A stretch of 64,000 nt of DNA from an uncultured bacterium (lineage in GTDB: Bacteria > Patescibacteriota > Gracilibacteria > Absconditabacterales > Absconditicoccaceae), in assembly GCA_946408385.1 (NCBI GenBank), contig CAMJSB010000002.1:1-64000 (forward strand), given 5' to 3'. Position 1 is the first letter of the stretch; each line of letters begins with the position of its first letter. Position numbers and translations under genes: made by a program. Shown piece by piece: positions 7,477 to 56,350 of the stretch. Below the pieces are notes generated by a model. It was not told where the DNA came from. It searched no databases and saw nothing but the letters and a program-made list of their open reading frames with translations.

Positions 7477-10400
7477 TTACCTAATATCTAAGAATTTCTC
7501 TAACGAAACAGCAGGTGAATACCTATAAAATACCGATTTTGTTTTATCTCACAGTCTTGCACGAATAACATCTCATTTCGTTAAATCAGTAGCAACATCG
7601 GTATAGTCACATGGACAAATATTACAATTATCAATCTCTATAGCCCATCATGAATCATAAGGAACAATAGGCATATCACAATTATTCATATCTTCTGGAC
7701 AATTTTCACAGTTCTCTCATTCATCTATTTTCCCATTTCCACATTCATTCTCTCCATCATCGATACAAATATCCCTCACATCCTTCGGACAATTTTCACA
7801 GTTCTCTCATTCATCTATTTTTCCATTTCCACATTCATTCTCTCCATCATCAATGCAAGGATCCTTTACATCCACCGAACATGTTTCACAATTCTCTCAT
7901 CTACCAAGTATTCAATCTCCACATGTAGTTCTATCTGCCACACATTCTATAGACTGACTTCCACTTATACACAACCAAGTCCATCTAAAACGAGCTGAGT
8001 TAAATATAAATTTAGAGGATACTCATTTAAAACATAGATTATCAGAATTTTGTAAATCTAACAAAATTTCTCAATCAAAATCGGGATTACAAATTACTTC
8101 ATTACTTCATATCATTTTACATAAATTAGAACATCAATATTCTCACCAATTTGTTTTATTTACATCTTTAGGATCACACTGTTCTCAATTATCTATTTTT
8201 CCATTTCCACATATTTTTGGAGGATTTTCATCTCCATCTTTCACACATTTTTCTCACAAATCTACTGGACAAGTTTCACAATTCTCTCCATCTTCTATTT
8301 CTCAGTTCCCACATTTTGGTTTATCTGGATTATATTTTGTACATTTTAATGTACATTTTTCATCCTTACCATTATTTTTTCCATCGTCACATTCTTCTCA
8401 TGATTCCTTATCTATTTTTCCATCTCCACACGTCTTTGTTTTACAAACCTTAGCATCTTCACTACAATTTTTACAATCTTCTGATTCCTGAATTTTTCCA
8501 TCTCCACATATTCATTCACATTCTTTTACATCTTCCGGACAATTCCTACAATTCTCTGCATCTTCTACCTTTCCGTTTCCACACCATGCACTACATTCTC
8601 ACACATCTTCTGGACAGTTTTTACAATTCTCTCATTCATCTATTTTTCCATTTCCACATGTTTTTGGAGGATTTTCATCTCCATCTTTCACACATTTTTC
8701 TCACAAATCTACTGGACAAGTTTCACAATTCTCTCCATCTTCTATTTCTCAGTTCCCACATTTTGGTTTATCTGGATTATATTTTGTACATTTTAATGTA
8801 CATTTTTCATCCTTACCATTATTTTTTCCATCGTCACATTCTTCTCATGATTCCTTATCTATTTTTCCATCTCCACACGTCTTTGTTTTACAAACCTTAG
8901 CATCTTCACTACAATTTTTACAATCTTCTGATTCCTGAATTTTTCCATCTCCACATATTCATTCACATTCTTTTACATCTTCCGGACAATTCCTACAATT
9001 CTCTGCATCTTCTACCTTTCCGTTTCCACACCATGCACTACATTCTCACACATCTTCTGGACAGTTTTTACAATTCTCTCATTCATCTATTTTTCCATTT
9101 CCACATGTTTTACAATTACCTGCATCTGTTGGGCACGTTTTACAACTTTCTCAATAATCCAAAACTCAATTTCAACAACAAACTCAAGCATCCTGAGGAC
9201 AATTATGACATGTTTCTCATTCATCTAATTTTCCATTTCCACAATCAGATTTTATCCAACAATTTTGTGTATAATATTCAGGACATCCATTATTAGAATT
9301 TCCTGGAATATCCAGACAAGCATCCACACTATCAGGAACACCATCTCAATCTTGATCTTTATCTAAAGATACAGTCGTACTTCAAGTAATATTAACATTC
9401 AATAATGAAGATGACAACAACTTGGATATATCATTTTCACATTGATCTCAGATTCAATTATTATTCAAATCTGATTGACTTACATTTGACACAAAAAAAC
9501 AGTTATCCAAAGAGCATACTCATTGATGTTTCTTTAATAAATCTAAATTGATATTATTTTCTCAAATAGAACAATCTTTGTTTTCATACAAAATAATTCA
9601 TATCAAATTTTTGACTCCATCTCAATCAATATCATCATCACAAATATCTGGAATCTTATCTCAATCTAAATCACATTTATAATTTGAAAGTGTTCCGTTT
9701 TTTATCGCATTTTCACACACATCTACAGAATTAATATGAACTGTTCATTGATTAACTAAAGCCACACATTTATTAACTTCTACAGAATTAGTTAACAATT
9801 TATCTCATGCATTTGGATAACTAAAATTCAGTACAGTATTTGATAAATTAGGAGCATACAAAAAGTTTTTATGACCCGCTTGATAACTCGTAAATAACGA
9901 TATAATAGGAGTCGTTGGATACATACTCAATCACAAAGCTAATTTTTCATTTTGATTATATCCTAAACGATCTCATACTATATTTGTAGCATAAGACTGC
10001 TTCAATAATGGATTTTGAACGCTAATTGTAGCTATATTATATAAAACTCTTCCATCTTTCAACACTACATCATATTGAATTGTTTTTAATCACGGCTCAT
10101 CATATTCATATTTATGAAATATATTATTCGAACTTTGGGTAAATCATCATCGATTAATATTTACATGGTCTATATCTTCATTTCTCAATCATACCAAATT
10201 AGAAGAAACCAAAGTTTCCTCCCACAAACTTTTTGGCGTTACTATCATATTTGAAAATCTTGGAGATCAATCTTGCAATATTGTAAGCATAGCTACAGCT
10301 TTTAAATCTCATCCTTTATATCATTTTGCTGTCACCACATATCTACCTTTTTCTTTTACTGTCACTTTAAATCACTCTGTTAGTTTTTGTGATTTTTCAT

Positions 10401-11880
10401 TCTGATTATTAATACTCCATAAAATTCTATCAAAATCTCAAGAATATAATGGCGTAAAAACATAATCAACACTTCAATTTTTAAACGTAAGGTTCGACTG
10501 TATATTTAACGCATAATTTTCAGATTCTGGAATTGCTATAAATAACTTATTCATAGCAAACGACTTTGATCAATTTTTTGATATAGCTTCCGCCTTTACT
10601 GTAAATGTACCAGATTTTCTATATGTATGTGTAATTTTATTTCAATTATTAACTACTTTTTTATTTCCATCTCAAAAGTCCCACTCAATCTTAACTATAT
10701 TTCAATTTGTAAGTGGTTCAAATTTGACAAGAGTTGGATATCATGCACCTATAGAATCTACATTGATAAAGAAACTAAATCACATATCGCCATTACCCAA
10801 AATTGTCTGATCTAAATCTTTCTTCCACAAAGACACAATAATATGATTATTATCGTCTACAACTCATACTAAGTTCTTTTTCCCATCTCAATCAATATCA
10901 TCATCACACACATTTCAAACTCAATCACCATCCAAATCATACTGATTTAAATTATACACATATGGACAATTATCCTTTCAATTTGTAATTCCATCACAAT
11001 CATAATCTACATTAAAACTACAATTAGCATAATTATCATAAACCGCAGAAAGGATACGAATAGCTTCATCTCACGGCATATTCGAAAATGATGCAACTTT
11101 TTGAGCATCTCCTAACGAAATAATTCACTCTTTATACAAAATATTCAATTCACTAACAGGCCAATATCATGTTCCAATCACACCAAATTGCTGAAAATTA
11201 CAATCAGACAAATTATACATACAATATTTTAACCATGTTTGAAATTCATTATTAGTTTGTGCATATGCAACTTTTGATTCAGCTTTATCTATTATATTCA
11301 GATCCGTCTGATTCAGTACTTTCATTTGCATGCTATTTTTTTTCAATCATTTTTTTCGAGATTTTACTTTTGACCAATCTATCAAATATTTACCTCTAAT
11401 CTGATCCTGAATAATATTCAAAACCGTCTGATAAAATTCTGATATCGTTATTGATTCCTGTCCACAAAAACTTCATTTACACTTAGTGGATGTAGATGGA
11501 TATCACTCCATATATCCATTATCTCCAACATAAGCTACACAATAATAATATGATTTTTTATTCCATACCCCTGCTTCATACCCTATATCATCAAAATCTT
11601 TTCAATCTATTTGTTTAAATTTATCCCAAAAATTTTGAGTGTATGTTTGTCTCATCCATATCGGAGCCTGTATACAATCCTGACAATTAGCAGCATTCAA
11701 AAGTCTAGCAACTTCATAACGAGATATAGAACTTTTATTTGAAAATGAGACCATATCCAAACCAACCTCTGATAATCTTTCTGAAAATGTTGTCGCATTT
11801 ACATATCATATACTACAAATTCAAAAAAAGAAGGACAAAAACAAACCTAAATAAAACTTTTTTTTATTTTTATTAAACAT
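7477..11880 (-). CDS. Giant secreted Cys-rich protein with TSP3, PKD and CGNGxxExGExC repeats
   Basis: A 1467-residue exported protein that starts with a signal peptide (MFNKNKKKFYLGLFLSFFF) and SLH-like helices (SISRYEVARLLNAANC). At about residues 285-325 is a thrombospondin type 3 calcium-binding unit (DNCP, NLNQYDLDGDGVGNVCDDD, DGDG). A PKD-type strand follows near residue 397 (IEWDFGDG), then more beta-sandwich sequence, more TSP3 units near 700 and 835, and then about 500 residues of tandem Cys-rich units of the form CGNGKIDEGENCKNCPEDV, resembling DUF4215/Myxococcus Cys-rich repeats. A 149-residue block is duplicated exactly in frame. The start has the only clear Shine-Dalgarno-like AAGGA I found. 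Probable surface structure for adhesion; no catalytic domain seen. Confidence 0.78.
8191..9111 (-). repeat. In-frame tandem duplication, 447-bp period
   Basis: Bases 8191-8664 match 8638-9111 over 474 positions with a shift of 447, with one visible difference (8213 a versus 8660 g). The period equals 149 codons, so the reading frame is kept. The unit contains several CGNG/CGDG Cys-rich modules. The near identity suggests a recent duplication, or homogenisation between copies. Confidence 0.95.
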
Positions 11881-11949
11881 AATTCCTTCAACTAATAAAA
11901 ACTGCATACAATCATAGAAATTATATTCTTTTTTTTCAAAAAATCAAAA

Positions 11950-15077: not shown

Positions 15078-16004
15078 ATGAAAGACGAACAAATAAAAAT
15101 CTGATGAATTACCTGGATTCATCTAGTAGATCCTGACAAAAAGCAAATCGATAAACTCGTAGATAAATACGATTTACACGAAATCATCGAACAGGATTTT
15201 TTGGATTTTACTACTCAGGACAAAATCGATACTTACGATGACTGTATCTTTATAGTTATGCGTTTCCCAAAATTTAATACGAGAACCAAAAAACATTTTG
15301 CAAATCACATGCATGCAATTTTGTGAAAAAATTTCATCATCACAGTTACTTCACACGTAACTAGTAATGTAGAAAAGATTCAGAATCAATATCGTAAAGA
15401 GGTCGCAGAAGCCGAAGATGATGAAAAATTCAAGCTATCTCCATACTATATCCTCTACATGATAATAGATGCTATGTATGACAAGGTTTTAACGTGAATG
15501 AATAAATTTTCACAAGACTTAGTAAAGATTGAAGATGCAGCTATGGATGCAAATTCTATCACACAAGAAACACTTTCAGAATTATTGATAAAAAAGAGAA
15601 GTGCTGTCTTGATGAAGCATATCATTAGCCCACATAGTGAAATTTTAACTGAATTACAAACTGCGACTATAAATTTCTATGAATGAGATTTGGATGTATA
15701 TTTCGAAGATTTGCTCTATAAAACTGATAAAATTCTATCTCTCGTATCCATTGCACATGAAAATACAGAAAGTCTATTCGATGTCTCAGATACCCTTACG
15801 ACTATTAGAACCAATAAAATAATTTCAATTCTGACTATATTCACAGTTTTACTAGGAATTTTAACCTGGATTAGCGGATTATATGGAATGAATGTAGATT
15901 TGCCTGCACAACATAGTATTTGAATTTTTTGGCGACTATTATGAGGAATGATATGCCTCACTATCGTAACCATGATTTACTTCAAATGGAAAAAGTGGTT
16001 CTAA
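15078..16004 (+). CDS. corA: CorA-family divalent metal ion transporter
   Basis: A 308-residue CorA-type magnesium/cobalt channel. The N-terminal cytoplasmic domain is followed by long stalk helices, then TM1 ending in the selectivity motif YGMN (GLYGMNVDLP), and TM2 with a short basic tail ending KWKKWF. The length, two C-terminal TM segments and GMN motif are diagnostic. Pentamers carry hydrated Mg2+ into the cell. Confidence 0.94.
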
Positions 16005-16031: not shown

Positions 16032-16124
16032 ACAAATACTACAAATTGCGATATTTATGTTATAGACAAAATTTGAAAAAACTTTTTAAAGACCAATTTA
16101 AGCTCATCAAAAAATATTAACTAA
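16032..16124 (+). pseudogene. 93-bp remnant of the C-terminus of a subtilase-like gene
   Basis: These 31 codons align without gaps to the last 31 codons of the subtilase-like gene at 26062-28344. Shared residues include DxYVIDKxGK, then T, LSxSK, and IN before TAA, about half identical, and many third-position changes are conservative. Nothing upstream (the end of corA) resembles the rest of that gene and I see no start. The relic sits just before a convergent head-repeat adhesin gene, as the intact copy does elsewhere in the window. Confidence 0.75.
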
Positions 16125-16136
16125 TTTTTAACCATA

Positions 16137-18695
16137 TTAAGAAGCCCATCAAGGATACTCTGGGTGCAAAAAACTTCGAGAGTATCGATTTTTACATCGA
16201 TTTTTAAGTTCACCATAATTAGCACACCTTGGAATTTCCAAACTACATATATTTACTTTTTGACAATTACAACAATATTTAAGATTATCAACAATATTAT
16301 TATCTACAACACAATTTCCCACACTATCTAAGACACATATCTTACTACAATCCATTCCAACATACATTCATTCTTGTGTACTTGGATGAAAATGTTCACA
16401 TCCCACATAACTCTGATTTCGATCTTGATAATAAGTATTATATTGCGTCCAACTTCAAACACACACTTTTTCACTTCATGTATATTCTCCACAAGTTAAA
16501 AATTCTCATGGCTCATAATCCCGTTGTCCGTCTGTACATTTCGAGATAATTTTTCATTGCGCACATCATTCATATTTATCGCATGAAGATGAAATATTAT
16601 ACGATACACATGTACCACCATTTTCCACCATTCCACTTGGACATCCCACACAAGATCATACACAAGTTCATATATACTCAACCCCATCTTCTGGAGCAAA
16701 AGTAGGCTCATATTGTGCATTTATTATCTCACACGATCTATTTGGCAATCATCAGGTACTAATCGATTCTCAAGTATTGATAGTATATGTTTTATTAAAC
16801 ACTTCTCAAACTCATATTCCACACCTCACTGTGATATCTAAAAGAAAAGGCAATGGCTCATTATCAGCAACTCTATATTTATTACTTCACATATAACAAA
16901 TTTTATACTTCTGTTCATTTTCACACTTACTACCATTCCATGTGTATCCATCTTTACATCTAAAACATCATTTCTTTACAGGTTCAGATATTCAATCTAT
17001 CTTACAATCCCATGTATATTTACCATTACTATATCATGTATTCGTAGCTGTAGCTGGAGATTCGCACTTATAAACTTCTGTTTCATTACAGAAAGATGTT
17101 ATTCGCTTACATCTACCAGAATCATAAAATCGATAATTAGAATCATCACATAAATATGCACATTTCTTTCAATTTGCCTCTGCAGCACTTGCATATAATT
17201 TTCTTTCTGTATTCGCTGTAAGTCAGTTATCACTTCATGCCACTAATGTTGCATTATCTGGCGCTAGTCACGTACACTGATATACTGGCTCTACACACTT
17301 ACCTCCGCTCCATATATAACCTGTATCACACTTATACAAACATGGTCATAATGTACCACCTGTATATGTCCATGATGTTGGTGTATATCCATACTGATAC
17401 GTACCTGCTCCTAATTTATATCCACTTCATATTGGCTTAGTTCATCCACAACTACTAGTTTTCGATACACAGCTAGTTCCATCCCATGTATAATTTTCTC
17501 TACATTTATATGAACATTCTTTATTAACATCATTATAATAATACGATCGAGACTTATTTGGTGGAGTCCATTCACCATTCTGCAAATTTTGTTTAAAATA
17601 TTCATTCACCGGTATTGTATTAGCTGGCAATATTCATGAACATTGCTTAATTCATCACGTTAAAGTTAATATAGGATCAGGAGACAAATCATAGCAATAT
17701 GGATAAACAACATTCATTATGCTACCTCCAGAATTATAGAATTTTCATTCTTTACATGTTACGGTCTGTGCGATATCTTCACACTTTTTTGCATAAGAAA
17801 CAGTATAAGCTGTCACTTTATCACCATTATGTAATATAGTTGTACCAAATTGACATCCTGAAAACACACCACACTTTAATTCACTACTACTACTTCTACC
17901 AAGTGTGTATACACTATCACCATCAGATGCCTTTATACATCCGTTTTCATTTACCCATACTCATCATGTTGTACTATCAAATTTTCCACTTCATAATTTT
18001 ACAGATCAATCAACCACCAAATAAACTCATGATACTGGTGTATTTGTTCCAATCAACATTCATCCACTAGCATTGATACGTGCAGAATTTTGTCAAGCAT
18101 ATCCATTCCAAGCGAAAGCTCCATCTTCTCATCTTGCCCCAGATCAAAGTGCTAAAGCATATTTTCATGCTCGATTTTTTATTCATCATAAAATTACACC
18201 ACCACTACTATTATTTCGACGTCATCATAAAATTACACCAAAAATATCAGTAATACTATTATTCCAACCTCCCGCTACAACTCAAATTTCAAGATAATTT
18301 GCAGCTCATCCACCGATTGCTCAATTCTCTGAACTTACATTATTATTCCTTCATCAAGCTATTCCTGCATTACTATTTTCAACAGAATTTCCAGATCATC
18401 CACCAATCGCTACCATTTCAACTCATTGTCTAGCTGAATTATTCTTTCAAACAATCAATCCATTAAGCAGATCTAAGCTAGATCATCAAGTATTTACTCT
18501 CATCCATGAGAATCATGTATCAAAATCCCCACTACCCAAAAACAGAGATCGCAAAGATATTGTATGGAGTTTTGAAATATCTGGCTCTGTATCTATAATA
18601 GTTTTTTCTCCAATAGTTACATTAATAATTCAAATTATCAAAAAAGTTGACAATAAAAATCATAATAGATAATTCCTTTTTGTTTTTATTTTCAT
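16137..18695 (-). CDS. Head-repeat (YadA-like) adhesin with Cys-rich C-terminal modules, copy 1
   Basis: An 852-residue exported protein with a signal peptide (MKIKTKRNYLLGFLLSTF, cleavage region near 30). Residues about 75-210 carry repeats of the form VAIGGGSGN, AGGRNNNVS, AIGGGAANY, VILGGRRNN, as in the left-handed beta-roll heads of trimeric adhesins, ending in a LALGSGA..GAFAWNG cap. The remaining 600 residues are Cys-rich modules such as CDTGYIWSGGKCVEPVYQC and CKDGYTWNGSKC. No C-terminal membrane anchor is visible, which differs from classical trimeric autotransporters. Part of the Cys-rich region is nearly identical in DNA to the paralogue at 29170-31101. Many glycines of the head repeats are TGA. 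Confidence 0.75.
16962..17336 (-). repeat. 375-bp block shared with 29269-29643
   Basis: The block matches 29269-29643 with one visible mismatch (16979-16981 region, ACAGG versus ACGGG). It is in the same reading frame in both adhesin genes and encodes the same Cys-rich modules, while the flanking sequence is unrelated or much more diverged. Confidence 0.93.
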
Positions 18696-18734
18696 AAGAC
18701 GAAACTTTAAAGAGTAAAATATTCCTCATTACTG

Positions 18735-18762
18735 ATTATATCCAAAAAAAAAATCCTGTCAA
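18735..18762 (-). promoter_or_regulatory. Sigma-70-type promoter of adhesin copy 1
   Basis: On the minus strand TTGACA (18757-18762) and TATAAT (18735-18740) are both perfect consensus, separated by 16 bases containing a T10 run. The start codon is about 40 bases downstream. The same arrangement precedes the paralogue at 29170-31101. Confidence 0.82.
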
Positions 18763-18790
18763 ATTTTGAAGGACTTTTTTTGATTTCTTA

Positions 18791-19183
18791 CGGTCATCCT
18801 AAGTGCAACGAAGTTTACACAGCTTGGCTGAGAATCTTAGGCACCTTACCGTCATCTTGAACTGTCATCCTGTGAATTTTTTGTCATCCTGAAGCGAAGT
18901 TTACTCAGCTTAGCTGAGGATCTTATGTATAAAACAAACACACAAGATTCTTTTCACCACGCTAGTTTACACCGTTAAACGGTGCGTGGCAAGTTTCGTT
19001 ATCACTCCATTCAGAATGACAATAGTGTGTCATCCTGTGAATTTTTTGTCATCCTGAGGCCCTCAGCCGAAGGATCTTAGGTGTAAAACGAACAAAAACA
19101 CACAAGATTCTTCATTCCGTTAACACTCCATTCAGAATGACAATAGTATGTCATGCTGAGTGCAACGAAGGATGTTAGGTGTC
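18791..19183. repeat. Cluster of GTCATCCTGAG-family inverted repeats
   Basis: Multiple copies and fragments are joined here: GTCATCCTAAG..GAATCTTAG, two TGTCATCCTGTGAATTTTT units, GTCATCCTGA..GAGGATCTTA, and ACACAAGATTCTT..TCAGAATGACAATA. At 18958-18996 is the sub-element CACGCTAGTTTACACCG/TTAAACGGTGCGTGGCAAG, which contains the palindrome CACCGTTAAACGGTG. Together with 19501-19620 it brackets a GIY-YIG nuclease gene. Confidence 0.88.
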
Positions 19184-19474: not shown

Positions 19475-19500
19475 ATTTCTATTTTTTATCATATAAAAAC

Positions 19501-19620
19501 ACAAAATTCTTCATTTCGTTATCACTCCATTCAGAATGACAGCAATATGTCATTCTGAGCGGGGCAAAGTTTACTCAGCTCTGCTGAAAATCTTAGGTGT
19601 AAAATCAACAAACACACAAA
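19501..19620. repeat. GTCATTCTGAG-family inverted repeat
   Basis: ACAAAATTCTTCATTTCG..TCAGAATGACA is followed by TGTCATTCTGAGC..GAAAATCTTAGGTGT, giving head-to-head copies of the family found throughout the window. Confidence 0.85.
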
Positions 19621-19650
19621 AATTTTCATTTCATTCACAGTAACAAAAAT

Positions 19651-24679: not shown

Positions 24680-24700
24680 ACGCTACACAGCATTAAATAT

Positions 24701-24782
24701 GCTGAGGTGATGGAACTGGTATACATGTACGCTTGAGGTGCGTATGCCTTATGGCTTGAGGGTTCGAGTCCCTTCCTCAGCA
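24701..24782 (+). tRNA. tRNA-Leu(GAG)
   Basis: Acceptor GCTGAGG pairs with CCTCAGC; the anticodon stem TACGC/GCGTA closes the loop TTGAGGT with anticodon GAG. The long variable arm (CCTTATGGCTTGAGG) and GTTCGAGTC T-loop fit class II leucine tRNA. Confidence 0.93.
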
Positions 24783-24802
24783 GTTACAAATTACCAATAC
24801 AT

Positions 24803-24873
24803 TGGGGAATCGTCTAATGGTAGGACACCGGACTTTGACTCCGTTTGTCCAGGTTCGAATCCTGGTTCCCCAG
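24803..24873 (+). tRNA. tRNA-Gln(TTG)
   Basis: Acceptor TGGGGAA pairs with TTCCCCA; the loop CTTTGAC carries anticodon TTG. T-arm CAGGTTCGAATCCTG is canonical. Confidence 0.94.
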
Positions 24874-24882
24874 AATTGATAT

Positions 24883-24957
24883 TGCGGAGTGGAGAAACGG
24901 TATCTCGTCGGGCTCATAACCCGAAGGTAGGTGGTTCAATTCCATCCTCCGCAACCA
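24883..24957 (+). tRNA. Initiator tRNA-fMet(CAT), CCA encoded
   Basis: Acceptor TGCGGAG/CTCCGCA, anticodon loop CTCATAA closed by GGG/CCC pairs, which is the initiator signature. The first base pair is T1-A72 rather than the C1xA72 mismatch of many bacteria. CCA is encoded at 24955-24957. Confidence 0.9.
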
Positions 24958-24972
24958 AAAAAGATTTAACAG

Positions 24973-25045
24973 TCGGGACTAGCTTAATTGGTAGAGCATC
25001 AGACTCTGAATCTGGGGGTTCTAGGTTCGAATCCTAGGTCCCGAA
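24973..25045 (+). tRNA. tRNA-Gln(CTG)
   Basis: Acceptor TCGGGAC pairs with GTCCCGA; anticodon loop CTCTGAA gives CTG; T-arm CTAGGTTCGAATCCTAG. Two glutamine isoacceptors therefore occur in one cluster. Confidence 0.93.
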
Positions 25046-25065
25046 AATGAAAAAAATAGTAAGGT

Positions 25066-25147
25066 GCCGGGATGGTGGAATTGGTAGACACGCTTGGCTT
25101 AGAACCAAGTGCCTTACGGTGTGCAGGTTCGAGTCCTGTTCCCGGTA
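25066..25147 (+). tRNA. tRNA-Leu(TAG)
   Basis: Acceptor GCCGGGA pairs with TCCCGGT; anticodon stem TTGG/CCAA with loop CTTAGAA gives TAG; class II variable arm present. Confidence 0.93.
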
Positions 25148-25157
25148 ATTAGCAAAA

Positions 25158-25341: not shown

Positions 25342-25896
25342 CTAATTAACAGTTCCTGTCAAAGTATTTACTACTACTTCATCTCACTCTTCTTTGTACA
25401 ATGGTACTTGGATTTCCATTCATGTTTCGATAGTAGCAGGTTTAGTTCATGCTTGAGCTCTATCTCATTTTACACCCGGTACTGTAGACACAATCTTGTA
25501 CGTAATAGTAGAAGGCAGAATTACATTTATTACATTTCATTGATACATCTGTAGATAAACATCTAAGTTATCCTTGAGATATCCAACTATATCATCTATT
25601 TTTTCTTTTTCGATATCATAAATCTCTCCTGTATCATTTTCCATAAAAGAATATGTATCTCCAGAATTGTATAGATAAACTGCATTCTGAGTAGCAATTT
25701 CAGCTTGCTCTAAAATCGCTCCAGAATTGTAAGTAAAAACGTTAGATTTTCATGTAACGATATCTTTTACCTTGTATGTATCGTTTGCTCCTCATCTTCA
25801 CATGTGAGTATGTGCAGTTTCTGTCACTTTAAAAAGCTTTCAGTCAATCAAAAGAATTGATCCTTTTTTTACATCAGAAGTAGTAATCTTTACCAT
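25342..25896 (-). CDS. efp: Elongation factor P
   Basis: A 184-residue EF-P. The three OB-like domains are recognisable: MVKITTSDVKKGSILLIDGK with the tip loop in domain I, then EIYDIEKEKIDDIVGYL, and the C-terminal VPGVKGDRAQAGTKPATIET then GMEIQVPLYKEEGDEV, the EF-P signature. EF-P relieves ribosome stalling at polyproline. The tip loop reads HMGRGAND where E. coli has KPGKGQAF, so an Arg replaces the modified Lys. Length is normal. It has its own terminator and a short AT-rich leader. Confidence 0.94.
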
Positions 25897-26061: not shown

Positions 26062-28344
26062 ATGACTGATAAATTAAACTCTATCAACTCTAGTGAAACA
26101 ACCAACACAAACAAATATAATAAATTCGTAAAGAATACAAAAGAAGCCGTTAGAAAAGTTTTAATGGGTACATGAATTGTAATAAGCACTTTACTACCTA
26201 TCACATCAGCTGAATTACTAACTGCATGTAGTGATGGATGAGATACGACAGAAGTAGTCAAAGATACTACTCCTCCTACAATAAACCTATTATCTTTATC
26301 TACAGATATCACATGAGGTAAAGAAGTTCGCATAAGCGGAAATCAGCTTTATATTTGAAGCACACTAATCGCTTCATGGTCAGACGAAACTACCAAAAAC
26401 TGTAAAGTAGAACTGTCAATCAACTGAAAACCTATCACTTCATGAACTACCATCAGTGAAGAATGAACTTTAACTATAAAGGTAACTGATACTGCTGGGA
26501 ATACCAAAAATGCTAGCCTAACATTGAACATAAACAATGCCCCAGAAATCACAGTAGACAAATATGAAATAAATATTTTTTGATGAGCAAAAATTAATAT
26601 AAGCGATAATAAACTAATAATATGAGATGAAACAGTCGCTTCACGAAAAGATGAAAGCTGAAAAAAATTGACTGTCAGCCTAAGCTTCAACTGACAACCA
26701 GTTAAATCATGAGATACAATCGATTGAGCATGAAAATTATCAGTTACCATAACTAACGAAAAATGAAAAAGTAGTAGTACAGAGATAACAGTTACCAATG
26801 ATGCAATTTACTGACTAGAAACACTAAAAAATGCTTCAATGAAAGTAGATCAAGAAATAAATTTATTAAACTGAATAACATTTGCTAATTGAGTAGAACT
26901 AGTAAAAACTGAAATAGAAATAGATGGAAAACGCAGCACTATAACAGATCCATCACACTATACTCCAAGCTACCCATGAGTATGTAGTATAATATTTTCT
27001 CTTCAATGAAAAAACGGAGAAACCACTGAAATAAAAGTAGACAATTTAACTATCAAACCACTAGACTACAAAGAAGCCACGATCAATAATGCCAACATGA
27101 TACAGGAAAAATATCCACGATATAATAATCTACAGCAATCAACCAAAGATTTTATATATCCACACTTGATAGCATCATATGCTGCATGTAATCGGTCTAA
27201 GCAAGACAATAGAGTACATATCATCATGTGAGAGACTACAAATGCAAGTGATGTAGAAAACATATGACAATTTACTACTCCATCCAATCATGCATATGAA
27301 TGATATTATCGTATCAGAGCTTTATCTCCAGATGTATCTATTAAGTGATGCGATGACTATTGGTTTAATCTAGAAAATTATATAAATCAGCATCCAAATG
27401 ATTTTTTCTTAGTTAGCTGTGCAGCTGATTCATGATGATGAAATAGCCGAGAACAAATGAATAACAATAAAGAGACTAATCCTCTTAGAAGAATATCGCA
27501 AAAAGAAAATGTTATACTTATATGTTCAGATGGTAATTCAAACCAAAAATATTGGAAAGTTTACAATGAAAGCATTAAAAATTGAAATCGATATAAGTCA
27601 TGTTCTATCAATAGTAATCTAAATAATAAAATCACCGTTACGTGATATAACTCTTGATGATCTGATAATTATTTCTCACCAGACCATAGTACATATTGAT
27701 GACTCGGAAGCGCTATGCTTGTATGATTCGATAAAAATAAATGAAATATTGTAATGCCAATGATTCCACTAATTTCATCAAACAACCAAGAAGCCTATAT
27801 TACAGACTCTTCTTATCCAACAGCTGCAACTAGCGGAGTAATCTGAAATGCTATATCAGTCATTATGTCCAACCATCCATGAATCACAGCAGAAGACGCA
27901 ATGACCATCATAGTAAATAATTATCTCACACAGGAGAAATTTCAATACAAAGACGAGACTACCAATCGAGAATTGGTAGATGGAGACTACCGATACTTCA
28001 TAGATATGCAAAAACTCCTAAAATCTGAACTTTTACAATCAGACAAAATCGAAAAAATTCAATTTAATTCAGATTTAGTTAGTTTGCCTAGTGGTCCATG
28101 AATATGCTATACTGGTAAATGAATCCAATTTGAATATGAATGAAAAAAATATAATGTTACCAGTGAAAACCAATCTATACTAAATCAAGCTCTCAAATCA
28201 TGAAATGTAAAATGGTACTGGAATAAAGATATGTTTAAAAAATTTGGATGAACAAATGCTGCAAGTTTTGATGTTTATGTAATAGACAAAAATTGAAAGA
28301 AAATCCCAGACACTCATTTAAGCATATCAAAAGCCATAAACTAA
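26062..28344 (+). CDS. Subtilase-like exported protein with Ig-like repeats
   Basis: A 760-residue protein. After a charged start there is a hydrophobic segment (KVLMGTGIVISTLLPITSAE, residues about 34-53) and a lipobox-like TAC. Residues about 70-300 form three similar beta-rich repeats (TLTIKVTDTAGNTKNASLT, LSVTITNEKGKSSSTEIT). The C-terminal half resembles the S8 fold: RVHIIMGETTN where the Asp strand would be, NHAYEGYYRIRALSPDVSI where HGTxxAG..APxxxI would be, and SSYPTAATSGVIGNAISVIM followed by SNHPGIT where GTSxAxPxxxGxxALL would be. The Asp position is Glu or absent, so it may be inactive. It converges on a collar-domain gene and an adhesin gene. Confidence 0.55.
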
Positions 28345-28432: not shown

Positions 28433-29143
28433 CTAGTTTTTCTTACAGAATAGGACTTTTACATATGCATTAGTAATATCAATATTCTCTTGATATTGAG
28501 GATTACAATTTTCATATCTATCCTTTCCATTTGCAACGTTTATAAGATAATCGCTATTTTTGAGTCCTTTACAAATCACACTCTCAGTTGCCCTAATTCA
28601 ATAAACCGGATAATTATCACCGTCCGATTGATTACTTCATATAAAACCACCAATCTCGTTAGTATTATTGATACGCACATATGAGTGAGCACTTTCATTA
28701 TCCCAATTTCCACTTCTTCCATAAGATGCCAGACTCTCAGAATATAGTGTATCTTTATAAATATGTGAATGAGGTGGTAGCTGATCAACGGTAAGTGTTA
28801 TACTGTTAGCTCATCACTTGCTTCCATATGATCATGTTCCTCCCATCAGAAATCTACCATCTGCCTCAGCATATCTAGTCCATCAACTTGGACATGTTGG
28901 TCCAGTAAATGCCATAATAGCTCATGCAGGTATAGCATTATTAGCTTGATTTTGAAGTTTGTTCATCAACATATTCCATTCATCTTCATCTAATATCTTA
29001 TCCGTAGATGAAGTCTTCCAGGCTGTATATGGACTAGATGTAGTCAGATTTGTAGCCGCATATACTACTAAAGAAAAAGTCATCATAAAAATAAAGGCTG
29101 ACAATACTGTCCATAATTTTCATGATTCTAGAATTTTTTTCAT
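28433..29143 (-). CDS. Secreted phage tail-collar-domain protein
   Basis: A 236-residue protein with an N-terminal hydrophobic signal (LSAFIFMMTFSLVVYA). Residues about 60-140 match the phage tail collar fold: IPAGAIMAFTGPTCPSGW, then ADGRFLMGGTGSYGSKGG, ITLTVDQLPPHSH, the last being the conserved PxHxH ending. Such domains trimerise at the tips of tail fibres. The rest is a Cys-containing C-terminal part. A signal peptide on a collar domain points to use as a cell-surface fibre part rather than in a virion. It follows the head-repeat adhesin gene by 26 bases in the same direction. Confidence 0.72.
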
Positions 29144-29169: not shown

Positions 29170-31101
29170 CTAATTTAAATAATTTCCCTCATTACAAGTA
29201 GGATCAAAGTTTATAGGAAAACAATAAGGGAATCCATTACTCGAACAATGATGACACTGCAATGTTAAAAAACATCATTTCTTTACGGGTTCAGATATTC
29301 AATCTATCTTACAATCCCATGTATATTTACCATTACTATATCATGTATTCGTAGCTGTAGCTGGAGATTCGCACTTATAAACTTCTGTTTCATTACAGAA
29401 AGATGTTATTCGCTTACATCTACCAGAATCATAAAATCGATAATTAGAATCATCACATAAATATGCACATTTCTTTCAATTTGCCTCTGCAGCACTTGCA
29501 TATAATTTTCTTTCTGTATTCGCTGTAAGTCAGTTATCACTTCATGCCACTAATGTTGCATTATCTGGCGCTAGTCACGTACACTGATATACTGGCTCTA
29601 CACACTTACCTCCGCTCCATATATAACCTGTATCACACTTATATCCACACACTGATGCATCATACGACCACGACTTACTTGTTGGTGTCCATGTGCTTCC
29701 ATTCCATGTCTGTGTATATGTTCAATGTCATGGTTTTGCCTCTGCTAATGATGGTATATCTCATTCACAATTTGCTGTTCTTGTTTTAGCCTTGCAACGA
29801 CCTCAGTTCTGATGATCAATTTCGTATCCTGTTGTACATGTCCATTGACATGGTAACAAGTTATTTTCATCCAAATTATCATTTCCTTCCCAAACTTTAT
29901 TACCATTTCATACATAAGTACTACTTCATGTTACCACTCATACTCACCTAGGCTCCCTTCATCCGCAAGTTTTAACCGTTACATATCATCATTCAACACT
30001 ACCAGAACATCAGACAACCAATCCATCTTCAGTCTGACATGACCAATGTACTTTATTATCTTTAGTTACCAAATATGCTCATGTTCATTCTACTATTTCT
30101 CATTTTTTACATGATCATGAATATACTGCATATTGTCTACCACCAATATTTTTACCAACTTTTGTTACAGTATCTCCACACTCAGGTTCTAGACTCACAT
30201 CACATACACTCATACATCTACCCCTTCCAAACATAGAACTCCATCCAGTACCATCACAGCTACACATACACATTTGATTATTTTCAGATTCTACTACCTT
30301 CAATATTCATCATCATACTCCCCATCCGCATGCTACATTTTCTCCAGTTCTACCAACAAAAAGAATCATCGGTCATCATAATGTCAATTTAGCAAAACTA
30401 TGTGCCTTATCTACATTAATTACTACTCCACTCTGTGCCATTACAGCAAAAACATTATCTGAATCTAAATTAGCAGATTCTCTACCATCTGTCCAAAGGA
30501 ATGAACCATTAGCATCAACTTTAACTCATGATCACAATGCTACAGAATAATTTCCTTCTACCGAACTATTACTTCACATCACTACAGATCACGTACCTTC
30601 AATCACATTCTTAATTCATCAAATAATTACCGAATATAATGAACTCTTTCCATTAATATAATTTTCTATTCATCAGATAATCGTATTATAAGATCATCAC
30701 GTTATACTATTTCATTCTCATCATAAAATCGAATTATACATTCATCGTACACTATTGCCAGATCATCCCAGAATCACATCATATGATCATCCTTTTCTAT
30801 TTTTATATCATCATAAAACACTACTATAATCTCCACTCATATTTGGAGAATCTTGATTACCTTCTAATAATAAAAATCAACTATCAGCTTCTATTTTTAC
30901 TAGATTCCCATCCAAAAATTTTAATGTAGCTTCTGCTCAATTATTTCCTGTAAAGACAAATTTTACTTCATTTATATGCTGAATTGCATTATCCAAATCT
31001 GGAGATAAAATCTTTTCAGCAGCAGACACAAACATCAATCACAAACTAGATATACTAAATATTCATCACATAATAAGCAGTGTCTTTTTTGAAATTTTCA
31101 T
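29170..31101 (-). CDS. Head-repeat (YadA-like) adhesin with Cys-rich modules, copy 2
   Basis: A 643-residue exported protein with signal peptide (LLIMGGIFSISSLGLMF). Residues about 80-190 show regular head repeats: SSVLGGYKNRKGGSYD, VILGGSGNSVRGMYNS, ILGGEGNSITGGSYNT, IIGGIENYI, ending with SVALGSGVKVDANGSFLWTD, close to the beta-roll heads of trimeric adhesins. After that come Cys-rich modules, including the 375-bp block shared with 16137-18695. There is no membrane-anchor domain at the C-terminus. About half the glycines in the head are TGA, often as TGATGA pairs. Transcribed with the collar-domain gene from a consensus promoter. Confidence 0.78.
29269..29643 (-). repeat. 375-bp block shared with 16962-17336
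   Basis: Partner of the block in adhesin copy 1, with one visible mismatch and the same reading frame. Confidence 0.93.
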
Positions 31102-31141
31102 ATCTTTTTGTTTTAGGTTATAAAAAGTATTCCTCAGCTCA

Positions 31142-31169
31142 ATTATATCCAAAAAAAAAATCCTGTCAA
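31142..31169 (-). promoter_or_regulatory. Sigma-70-type promoter of adhesin copy 2
   Basis: Minus-strand TTGACA (31164-31169), 16-base spacer with a T10 run and TATAAT (31142-31147), about 40 bases before the ATG; nearly identical to the promoter at 18735-18762. Confidence 0.82.
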
Positions 31170-31298
31170 ATTTTGGGGGACTTTTTTATTTAATTTATTA
31201 CAATTTGAATTATCAGATATAATATGATTTTTCTTGCAATTTTTTATTCCTTCACTATATAATATTATAATATTTACAGCAAATATTTTCTCAAAAAA

Positions 31299-38318: not shown

Positions 38319-39491
38319 ATGTTAGACAAAAAAGAATTACAACAATCTGAACCACTTCGTGTATTTCTAGTAGATTTAGTGGACAAAAATACAAATAAGG
38401 AAGAACTTCATGACAGAATGAGAGAACTTGAAAATTTAGTAGAAACTTACTGATGAATAGTAGTTCTCCAAAAATATCAGAAAAAAGATATTCCAGATCC
38501 AAAAACATATGTCTGAAAATGAAAATTAGATGAAATTATTCATGATATGCTATTATTGAAAGCTAATCTTTTGATAGTAGGAAATGCTTTGAAACCTGCT
38601 CAGATTTGGCAGATAAATGAAAAATTACGTGTAGTTTCAGAAGAACATAAACTAGATCCAAAAATGGAAGCTCGAGATCGTATAGATCTGATTTTGAAAA
38701 TATTTGAAAAACATGCAACGAGTGGAGAATCACGTTTACAAATCCAGCTCGCAGCGATTAAGCATATGTGACCTAGAATTTATAGAATGTGAATGGATTT
38801 ATCCAAACAGTGATGAGCCGCTTCGTGAGGTGGAGCTGGAGCTACACGTTGACTTGGAGAAACCAATACAGAAAGGATGAAAAGACACCTCAAAGAGCAG
38901 ACTATGAAAATTGAGAAAAAACTCGTTGAATATGCTAAAATGCGTAAACTTCATCGTGATGCACGTATCAAAAAATGAATGCCGACTGTAGGAATAGTTG
39001 GTTATACGAATGCAGGAAAATCCTCGCTTTTGAACGGTTTGACCAAAAAATGAGTATTAGCTGAAAATAAACTTTTCGCTACTTTGTGAACGAATGTTGG
39101 GAATCTGTATGTGATTACAGATCCTGTAACTGGAAGATGAAAAGAAATTCTTCTGAACGATACAATTGGATTTATTCGTGATTTACCTCCAAAACTGATT
39201 AAATCTTTCTCTTCTACTCTGGAAGATAGCATTGAGTCAGATTTACTTTTGCATGTAATAGATTCTAGTGATCCATTCGTTGGAGAAAGGATCTCTGTGG
39301 TTCATGATGTATTGAGTGATATTTGAGCGAATCAAAAAAGAATCTTAGTTTTCAATAAAATTGATTTAATCGATGAAGAAAAGCTGAATGAATTGAAAGA
39401 ATTATTTCCTAATGAGGATAAAGTTTTCATTTCAGTGAAATGAAATATCTGATTGGATGAATTGAAAAATCTGATAGCCAAGAATGTGTAG
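38319..39491 (+). CDS. hflX: GTPase HflX
   Basis: A 390-residue HflX, a ribosome-associated GTPase that splits stalled or hibernating ribosomes. The N-terminal domain has the YVGKGKLDEI motif and DRIDLILKIFEKHATSGESR, then LQIQLAAIKH and the Gly-rich GGGAGATRGLGETNTE loop, a HflX hallmark. The G domain follows: G1 GYTNAGKSSLLN, G3 DTIGFIRDLP, G4 NKID. Length is normal. Several glycines of the Gly-rich loop are TGA. An inverted repeat follows directly. Confidence 0.95.
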
Positions 39492-39496
39492 TTTTT

Positions 39497-39587
39497 GTCA
39501 TTCTGAGGAGGAATACGATGACGACGAAGAATCTTGTGTGTTTATATATTTTATACCTAAGATTCTTCGCTTTAGCTCAGAATGACA
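39497..39587. repeat. GTCATTCTGAG-family inverted repeat
   Basis: TTGTCATTCTGAGGAGG..GACGAAGAATCTTG pairs with CTAAGATTCTTCGCTTTAGCTCAGAATGACAAG. The following 240 bases up to rpsL hold only AT-rich leader and the promoter listed. Confidence 0.9.
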
Positions 39588-39736
39588 AGAATAGACAAAA
39601 TTGTCAATTTTAACCGAACATCCATTTACAATAGTGCGTTATAAGACAGCTTTTTATCTTTTTTTTCAAGATTTTTAATATTAAGTTTTGGCATACAAAC
39701 TACTCAAATTCGAAATTGATATAAATTATCAAAATT

Positions 39737-44709: not shown

Positions 44710-44811
44710 AATAAAATACAACACAAACACAATGTAAAATAGTCTTTCAGTTATCGCCATTCCTATCATTCTAAATAAACCATGAACATGGCGAATACAC
44801 ATACTGTTATT

Positions 44812-45087
44812 CTGAACGAGTGTAGCTTGCCACGCACCGTTTAACGGTGTAAACTAGCGTGGTGAAAAGAATCTTGTGTATTTGTTTGTTACCTAAGATC
44901 CTCAGCTAAGCTGAGTAAACTTCGCTTCAGAATGACAAAAAATTCACAGGATAACAAATTGTCAGTCATTCTGAACGAGTATCAACGAAGTGAAGAATCT
45001 TGTGTATTTGTTTGTTACCTAAGATCCTCAGCTAAGCTGAGTAAACTTCGCTTCAGGATGACAAAAAATTCACAGGATGACAAATCA
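44812..45087. repeat. Compound dispersed repeat with 126-bp internal duplication
   Basis: Two direct copies (about 44869-44966 and 44995-45087) of GAATCTTGTGTATTTGTTTG..CCTAAGATCCTCAGC..AAACTTCGCTTCAG..TTCACAGGAT occur in tandem. Upstream, 44827-44864 carries the CACCGTTTAACGGTG palindromic sub-element, in inverted orientation to that at 18958. Nothing gene-like is seen in the 424-base gap. Confidence 0.9.
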
Positions 45088-45133
45088 AAAAAAGCCAACC
45101 CCTTTCGAGATCAGCTTTCCTATTTTTATCATT

Positions 45134-56175: not shown

Positions 56176-56336
56176 CTTAACATAGCGAAGAATCTTATGC
56201 ATTAGTATGTCACTTCGAAACCAATGAACCGGCTTGAAAAATCCAGGACACTCAAATAAGCTTTTCTGAATTCTTTTCATCACGCTAGTTTACACCGTTA
56301 AACGGTGCATGACAAGCTACACTCTCTCTGAATAAC
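56176..56336. repeat. Dispersed repeat with CACCGTTAAACGGTG sub-element
   Basis: Half-sites CGAAGAATCTTATGC and TTTCTGAATTCTTTTCATC flank, and the CACGCTAGTTTACACCG/TTAAACGGTGCATGACAAGC sub-element lies at 56282-56316. It fills most of the 270-base gap between the M29 and sufB genes. Confidence 0.83.
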
Positions 56337-56350
56337 ATACCCCACATTCA

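Follow-up and report, generated by a model that had tools for sequence, protein, structure and literature searches.

A stretch of 93 bp at positions 16032..16124 (plus strand) is a decayed relic of a gene for a subtilase-like lipoprotein, and the intact gene (26062..28344, plus strand) lies in the same window, i.e., the whole 64,000-nt stretch of DNA that was analyzed and to which all coordinates refer. The relic retains the last 31 codons together with the stop. It is likely that a second copy of the lipoprotein gene, or a copied 3′ fragment of it, left this decayed 3′ end, and that it would have arrived after the split of the species by recombination at adhesin loci. Throughout, translations follow NCBI code 25 (TGA = Gly): In-frame TGA codons occur in all of the genes discussed, and this genome reads TGA as glycine.

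As originally predicted, the relic aligns without gaps to the 3′ end of the subtilase-like gene (28252..28344, plus strand). The two translations, TNTTNCDIYVIDKIGKNFLKTNLSSSKNIN and TNAASFDVYVIDKNGKKIPDTHLSISKAIN, each followed by a stop, agree at 17 of 30 residues and in the stop codon, and the DNA is identical at 69 of 93 bases. When all 127,816 positions of the two strands were scanned without gaps, this placement was by far the best both in BLOSUM62 score (79, next best 20) and in base identity (69/93, next best 47/93). A profile search of the complete 1.09-Mb genome, with all 760 residues of the lipoprotein as the query, matched the gene itself and C2:15993-16121 (E 0.003) and returned no further copies of the lipoprotein C-terminus. 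The scan and the genome search thus single out the relic and place the alignment above chance. An apparent third copy at C1:62109 (81% over 45 bp) is located inside an unrelated ORF of 2713 aa and was missed by the protein search, and we attribute it to chance. At the DNA level, similarity is strong between 16032 and about 16127 and is lost within a few bases of either limit, and a weak protein similarity (NFRKY/MFKKF) extends back toward the stop of the preceding gene, corA (16002-16004).

That the match might instead reflect a shared C-terminal domain, or a short ORF that still functions, is suggested by a reading frame that stays open from the corA stop to the stop of the relic itself. However, this frame lacks an ATG, GTG or TTG start downstream of the corA stop, the C-terminus occurs nowhere else in the genome, the sequence is absent in relatives, and substitutions are spread evenly over the three codon positions (identity at 22, 25 and 22 of 31), the pattern of decayed DNA that is no longer translated. 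We therefore view a functional ORF as most improbable. The similarity to a functional gene of the same genome is significant, and the coding constraint has been lost (there is no start, most of the gene is missing, and divergence is even across codon positions), which together identify the sequence as a pseudogene. Neither the genome protein search nor the local comparison found any remnant of the rest of a second protease gene beyond the relic.

The relic sits 27 bp after the stop of corA (15078..16004, plus strand), an intact gene for a CorA-type Mg2+ transporter (PF01544, E 1e-47), and on its other side it faces a convergent gene, adhesin 1 (16137..18695, minus strand). The original prediction had a convergent adhesin gene directly 3′ of both the relic and the intact protease gene; this holds for the relic, but in the second copy a collar-like gene of 236 aa with a weak Gp10_C match (28433..29143, minus strand) intervenes between the protease gene and adhesin 2. 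Nor does a comparison of the two loci extend homology from the relic into the flanking adhesin DNA, the similarity stopping at about 16127. We considered a junction inside corA, where a change of KRF to KWF at the end of the protein resembles the protease KWYW, but judged the resemblance too weak, at two bases, to argue for it. The terminator-like hairpins found 3′ of corA in two relatives of the same genus, G084 and G177, were not seen after corA in the window.

The product of the surviving gene is a lipoprotein of 760 aa, in which a lipobox (LLTAC) is followed by Ig-like repeats and by a domain with a predicted subtilisin-like fold. A full-length AlphaFold model (pLDDT 55) retrieved Ig-like and cadherin-type repeats in Foldseek and was set aside in favor of a model of the domain built from seven homologues (pTM 0.78, mean pLDDT 68, with patches of low confidence), whose top Foldseek matches are almost all subtilisin-family proteases, mostly at a probability of 1.00. 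Searches of Pfam and NCBIfam with the lipoprotein matched no peptidase or other family model, and a sequence search of the PDB gave weak matches only (E 0.1-0.4), one of them to a subtilase. Relative to S8 proteases such as subtilisin BPN′, PCSK9 and site-1 protease, the lipoprotein is alike in its predicted fold and in conserving the His, the oxyanion Asn and the Thr that precedes the Ser, but it is unlike them in being only about 10% identical, in having no Pfam or NCBIfam match, and in carrying long Ig-like N-terminal repeats with a lipobox. Invariant among the seven homologues are a Glu at the position of the catalytic Asp, the His, the oxyanion Asn and the Thr preceding the nucleophile, and the nucleophile itself is Ser in five of the seven and Ala in the other two, which include the gene in the window. 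The Asp-His-Ser triad of the window protein is thus incomplete, with Glu for Asp and Ala for Ser and only His kept. Because of the Ser-to-Ala change, as read from the predicted fold and the alignment, the window lipoprotein is probably a non-catalytic member of its family, and it probably binds rather than cuts. As a surface lipoprotein, it would consist of a membrane anchor, Ig-like spacer repeats and then the subtilisin-like domain.

The two adhesin genes are diverged and have nonetheless exchanged DNA. Adhesin 1 (852 aa) comprises a head-repeat domain (aa 1-352), a Cys-rich stalk and a long tail, and adhesin 2 (29170..31104, minus strand; the listed ORF opens at 31152, with a probable ATG at 31104) has putative YadA-like head repeats; their head regions are only 23% identical. 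Yet a 375-bp block of the stalk (16962..17336 in adhesin 1 and 29269..29643 in adhesin 2, both minus strand) differs between them at a single position (99.7% identity) and is bordered on both sides by unlike DNA, showing a recent exchange between genes that are otherwise diverged. The match of adhesin 2, and of adhesin 2 only, to the PF05658 head repeat (E 6e-5, 23.8 bits) falls just below the curated gathering cut-off of 25; these proteins may resemble YadA-type adhesins in the beta-roll-like head repeats of adhesin 2, but have no recognized trimeric-autotransporter anchor domain and bear instead a Cys-rich modular stalk. The adhesin next to the lipoprotein gene has a putative YadA-like head carried by a Cys-rich stalk, and modules of this stalk are swapped between genes. 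Swapping of stalks or tails between adhesin paralogues is a known pattern for modular surface-protein genes, with which the present genes share a near-identical block within diverged adhesins and variable C-termini at one locus, and from which they differ in that the tip of a convergent neighbor stayed behind as a scar of the exchange or of a separate duplication.

Comparison with G084 and G177 bears on the timing of these events. The gene order in G084, inverted relative to the window, is adhesin A, protease, EF-P, further genes, adhesin B and corA; in G177, adhesins A and B form a tandem pair ahead of corA, and the search detected no protease gene in this genome. In the adhesin tree, adhesin 1 groups with adhesin B of both relatives (support 100/98), and adhesin 2 groups with adhesin A of both (support for the A clade 97/97). 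Because both adhesins have orthologues in G084 and G177, they were separate genes before the species split. The spacers between corA and adhesin B in G084 and G177 contain no relic and no protease or collar gene. As a neutral yardstick, third positions of corA are 54-60% identical between the three species, versus 74% for the unconstrained relic, whose length of only 93 bp makes its age approximate (the 95% confidence range of its identity is about 64-83%). The relic thus probably postdates the species split, in which case it would not stem from the duplication that produced the two adhesins. Adhesin 1 is also about 450-480 aa longer than its orthologues, which lack its long tail, and all of the extra length is at the 3′ side beside the relic. 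C-termini of the B clade vary by species, with a long stalk and tail (about 500 additional residues) in the window, a short end in G177 and, in G084 (L024 14923-16137), a type I dockerin domain (PF00404, E 6e-7).

The promoters of the two adhesin genes had been put forward as a sign of common duplication. They are indeed alike: The promoter regions of adhesin 1 (18716..18791, minus strand; AAAAGTCCTTCAAAATTTGACA-16-TATAAT) and adhesin 2 (31124..31201, minus strand) are 83.5% identical over 79 bp. However, they belong to a class, AAAAGTC-N4-AAANTTTGACA-16-TATAAT, that is common to nearly all adhesin genes of the compared genomes and is also present at many other sites (15 in this genome, versus 0 for a reversed control pattern), and this genus-wide distribution rules them out as evidence of a duplicated locus. 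Both promoters (18735-18778 and 31142-31185) contain a T10 run within the 16-bp spacer and a partial inverted repeat across the -35 box (for example, TCCTGT..ACAGGA in G084), features that could relate to slippage or regulation. Among other repeats of the window are a dispersed intergenic element of the type TGTCATCCTGAGCGAAG...GATCTTA (18857-19160, 19487-19639, 39485-39591, 44797-45088 and 56270-56337) and, within a large ORF (7477-11907), a 482-bp overlapping tandem duplication (8183-8664 and 8630-9111; 99.4% identical).

How did the relic come to lie beside adhesin 1? The original prediction invoked duplication of the whole locus (protease, collar gene, adhesin and promoter) followed by loss of the protease and collar genes from copy 1, and the common order and orientation of relic and adhesin, the similar promoters and the linkage of protease and adhesin genes in other genomes (see below) all speak in its favor. 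Such a history expects the adhesins to be sisters of each other and younger than the species split, and the tree shows neither; they are old paralogues in separate clades, with orthologues in two relatives and heads that retain little identity. Given, in addition, that the orthologous corA-adhesin sites are empty, that the relic is probably younger than the split, that the promoter is of a genus-wide class and that the collar gene is unlinked elsewhere, we consider this scenario improbable. It may also be that an older protease gene stood at the corA site and was lost in both G084 and G177.

The explanation that we favor, arrival by recombination after the species split, when adhesins 1 and 2 had long existed as separate genes, could have followed either of two routes. 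A recombination within the adhesin stalk may have brought into adhesin 1 a copy of the 3′ terminus of an adhesin linked to a protease gene, along with about 95-120 bp at the tip of that convergent protease gene, so that there was never a full second gene. This route, which we hold tentatively as a reasonable possibility, would agree with the extra length of adhesin 1 lying wholly on the side next to the relic, with the demonstrated exchange of a stalk block and with the lack of any remnant from the rest of the protease gene; but no sampled protease-linked adhesin has a tail that clearly corresponds to that of adhesin 1 (the similarity to one such tail is weak, E 5e-4), and the different ages of relic (74%) and block (99.7%) mean that at least two events are needed. 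Alternatively, an independent copy of the protease gene could have been placed beside adhesin 1 and then almost completely deleted. For this there is a precedent in G084, where a second protease gene is convergent with another adhesin, yet neither the 5′ end nor the promoter of a second gene has left a trace, and the long 3′ addition to adhesin 1 goes unexplained. We hold this route, likewise tentatively, as a possibility only slightly less likely than the first. By either route, all but the last 31-39 or so codons would be missing and the remainder would drift as non-coding DNA.

Although the whole-locus duplication does not hold, the genetic link between protease and adhesin is real, and the search of related genomes that had been proposed for it bears it out: All four intact protease copies of the genus, i.e., that of the window, two in G084 and one in G244, neighbor a head-repeat adhesin gene. 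The arrangement is convergent for both G084 copies and divergent in G244, and in the window the two genes are one gene apart with the collar gene between them. The two protease genes of G084 share 81% identity, which is confined to the gene and part of the DNA upstream, the copied stretch ending at the protease stop, and each is convergent with a different adhesin; the protease gene was thus copied there without the adhesin. Relatives of the collar gene in this genome (C5) and in G251 are not neighbors of any adhesin or protease gene; accordingly, of the proposed module of three proteins only the protease-adhesin linkage is retained. The EF-P gene (Elongation factor P; 25342..25896, minus strand), which by synteny marks the protease locus in G084, adjoins a cluster of five tRNA genes (24700-25148) at the edge of the locus.

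In the LapG/LapA system, a protease is genetically linked to a large adhesin. One account (PMC13090378) describes such Lap-type systems, including Dvh in Desulfovibrio, and the window genes may be likened to them in the linkage of a protease-type protein to a large adhesin, but are unlike them in belonging to other protein families and in that the protease-like protein is without its Ser. The literature found by our search does not describe the present gene pair.

Relatives of the lipoprotein also occur outside the genus. Among 288 genomes of the class, matches beyond the Ig-like part are confined to this genus, with another genus weakly matching that part; and a scan of public genomes found homologues on a contig binned as rumen Bacteroidales. 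Homologues in G288 and G414 are TGA-rich, and those on G288 contigs have GC-rich neighbor genes in which TGA is scarce or absent, for which chimeric assembly and recent transfer are both possible. TGA-rich homologues are present on Bacteroidales-binned contigs in L155 (JAGABI010000024.1; 1-1473 and 2409-4877), L163 (3-1577) and L167 (1065-3536), and in L163 and the 822-aa gene of L155 the first part is GC-rich and TGA-poor and the rest TGA-rich, a pattern that either chimeric assembly or transfer across a code boundary could produce. Within the genus itself, TGA is a common Gly codon in some genomes and nearly absent from the corA and EF-P genes of others (G140, G251 and G090 vs. G000, G084 and G177). 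The homologue in G322 (L172 7543-9489) is a standard-code lipoprotein that has the same subtilase-like domain and no TGA; it lies between ordinary Bacteroidales genes, deep inside a normal segment of Bacteroidales chromosome, and shares 55% identity with the G084 domains and 43-60% with the TGA = Gly versions of its type. There are two deeply different allelic types, each with a 55-65% identical relative on Bacteroidales-binned contigs. From the position and codon usage of the G322 gene, the family has been shared between Bacteroidales and the TGA = Gly genus, in one direction or the other. It is possible, though we would stop a little short of calling it probable, that adhesin-paired lipoproteins are exchanged with rumen Bacteroidales, possibly the hosts of these bacteria, across the genetic-code boundary.

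The 93-bp scar records a recent change in the neighborhood of adhesin 1, and, considered alongside the 375-bp exchange and the variable C-termini, suggests that these small bacteria rearrange as modules their surface adhesins and the linked lipoprotein with its predicted subtilisin fold. Most likely, the adhesin and lipoprotein act as a pair in attaching to another cell's surface or in handling that surface. With no Pfam or NCBIfam model of its own, linkage to an adhesin in four of four copies and a presence in rumen Bacteroidales, this lipoprotein family is a candidate for a role in contact with another cell.
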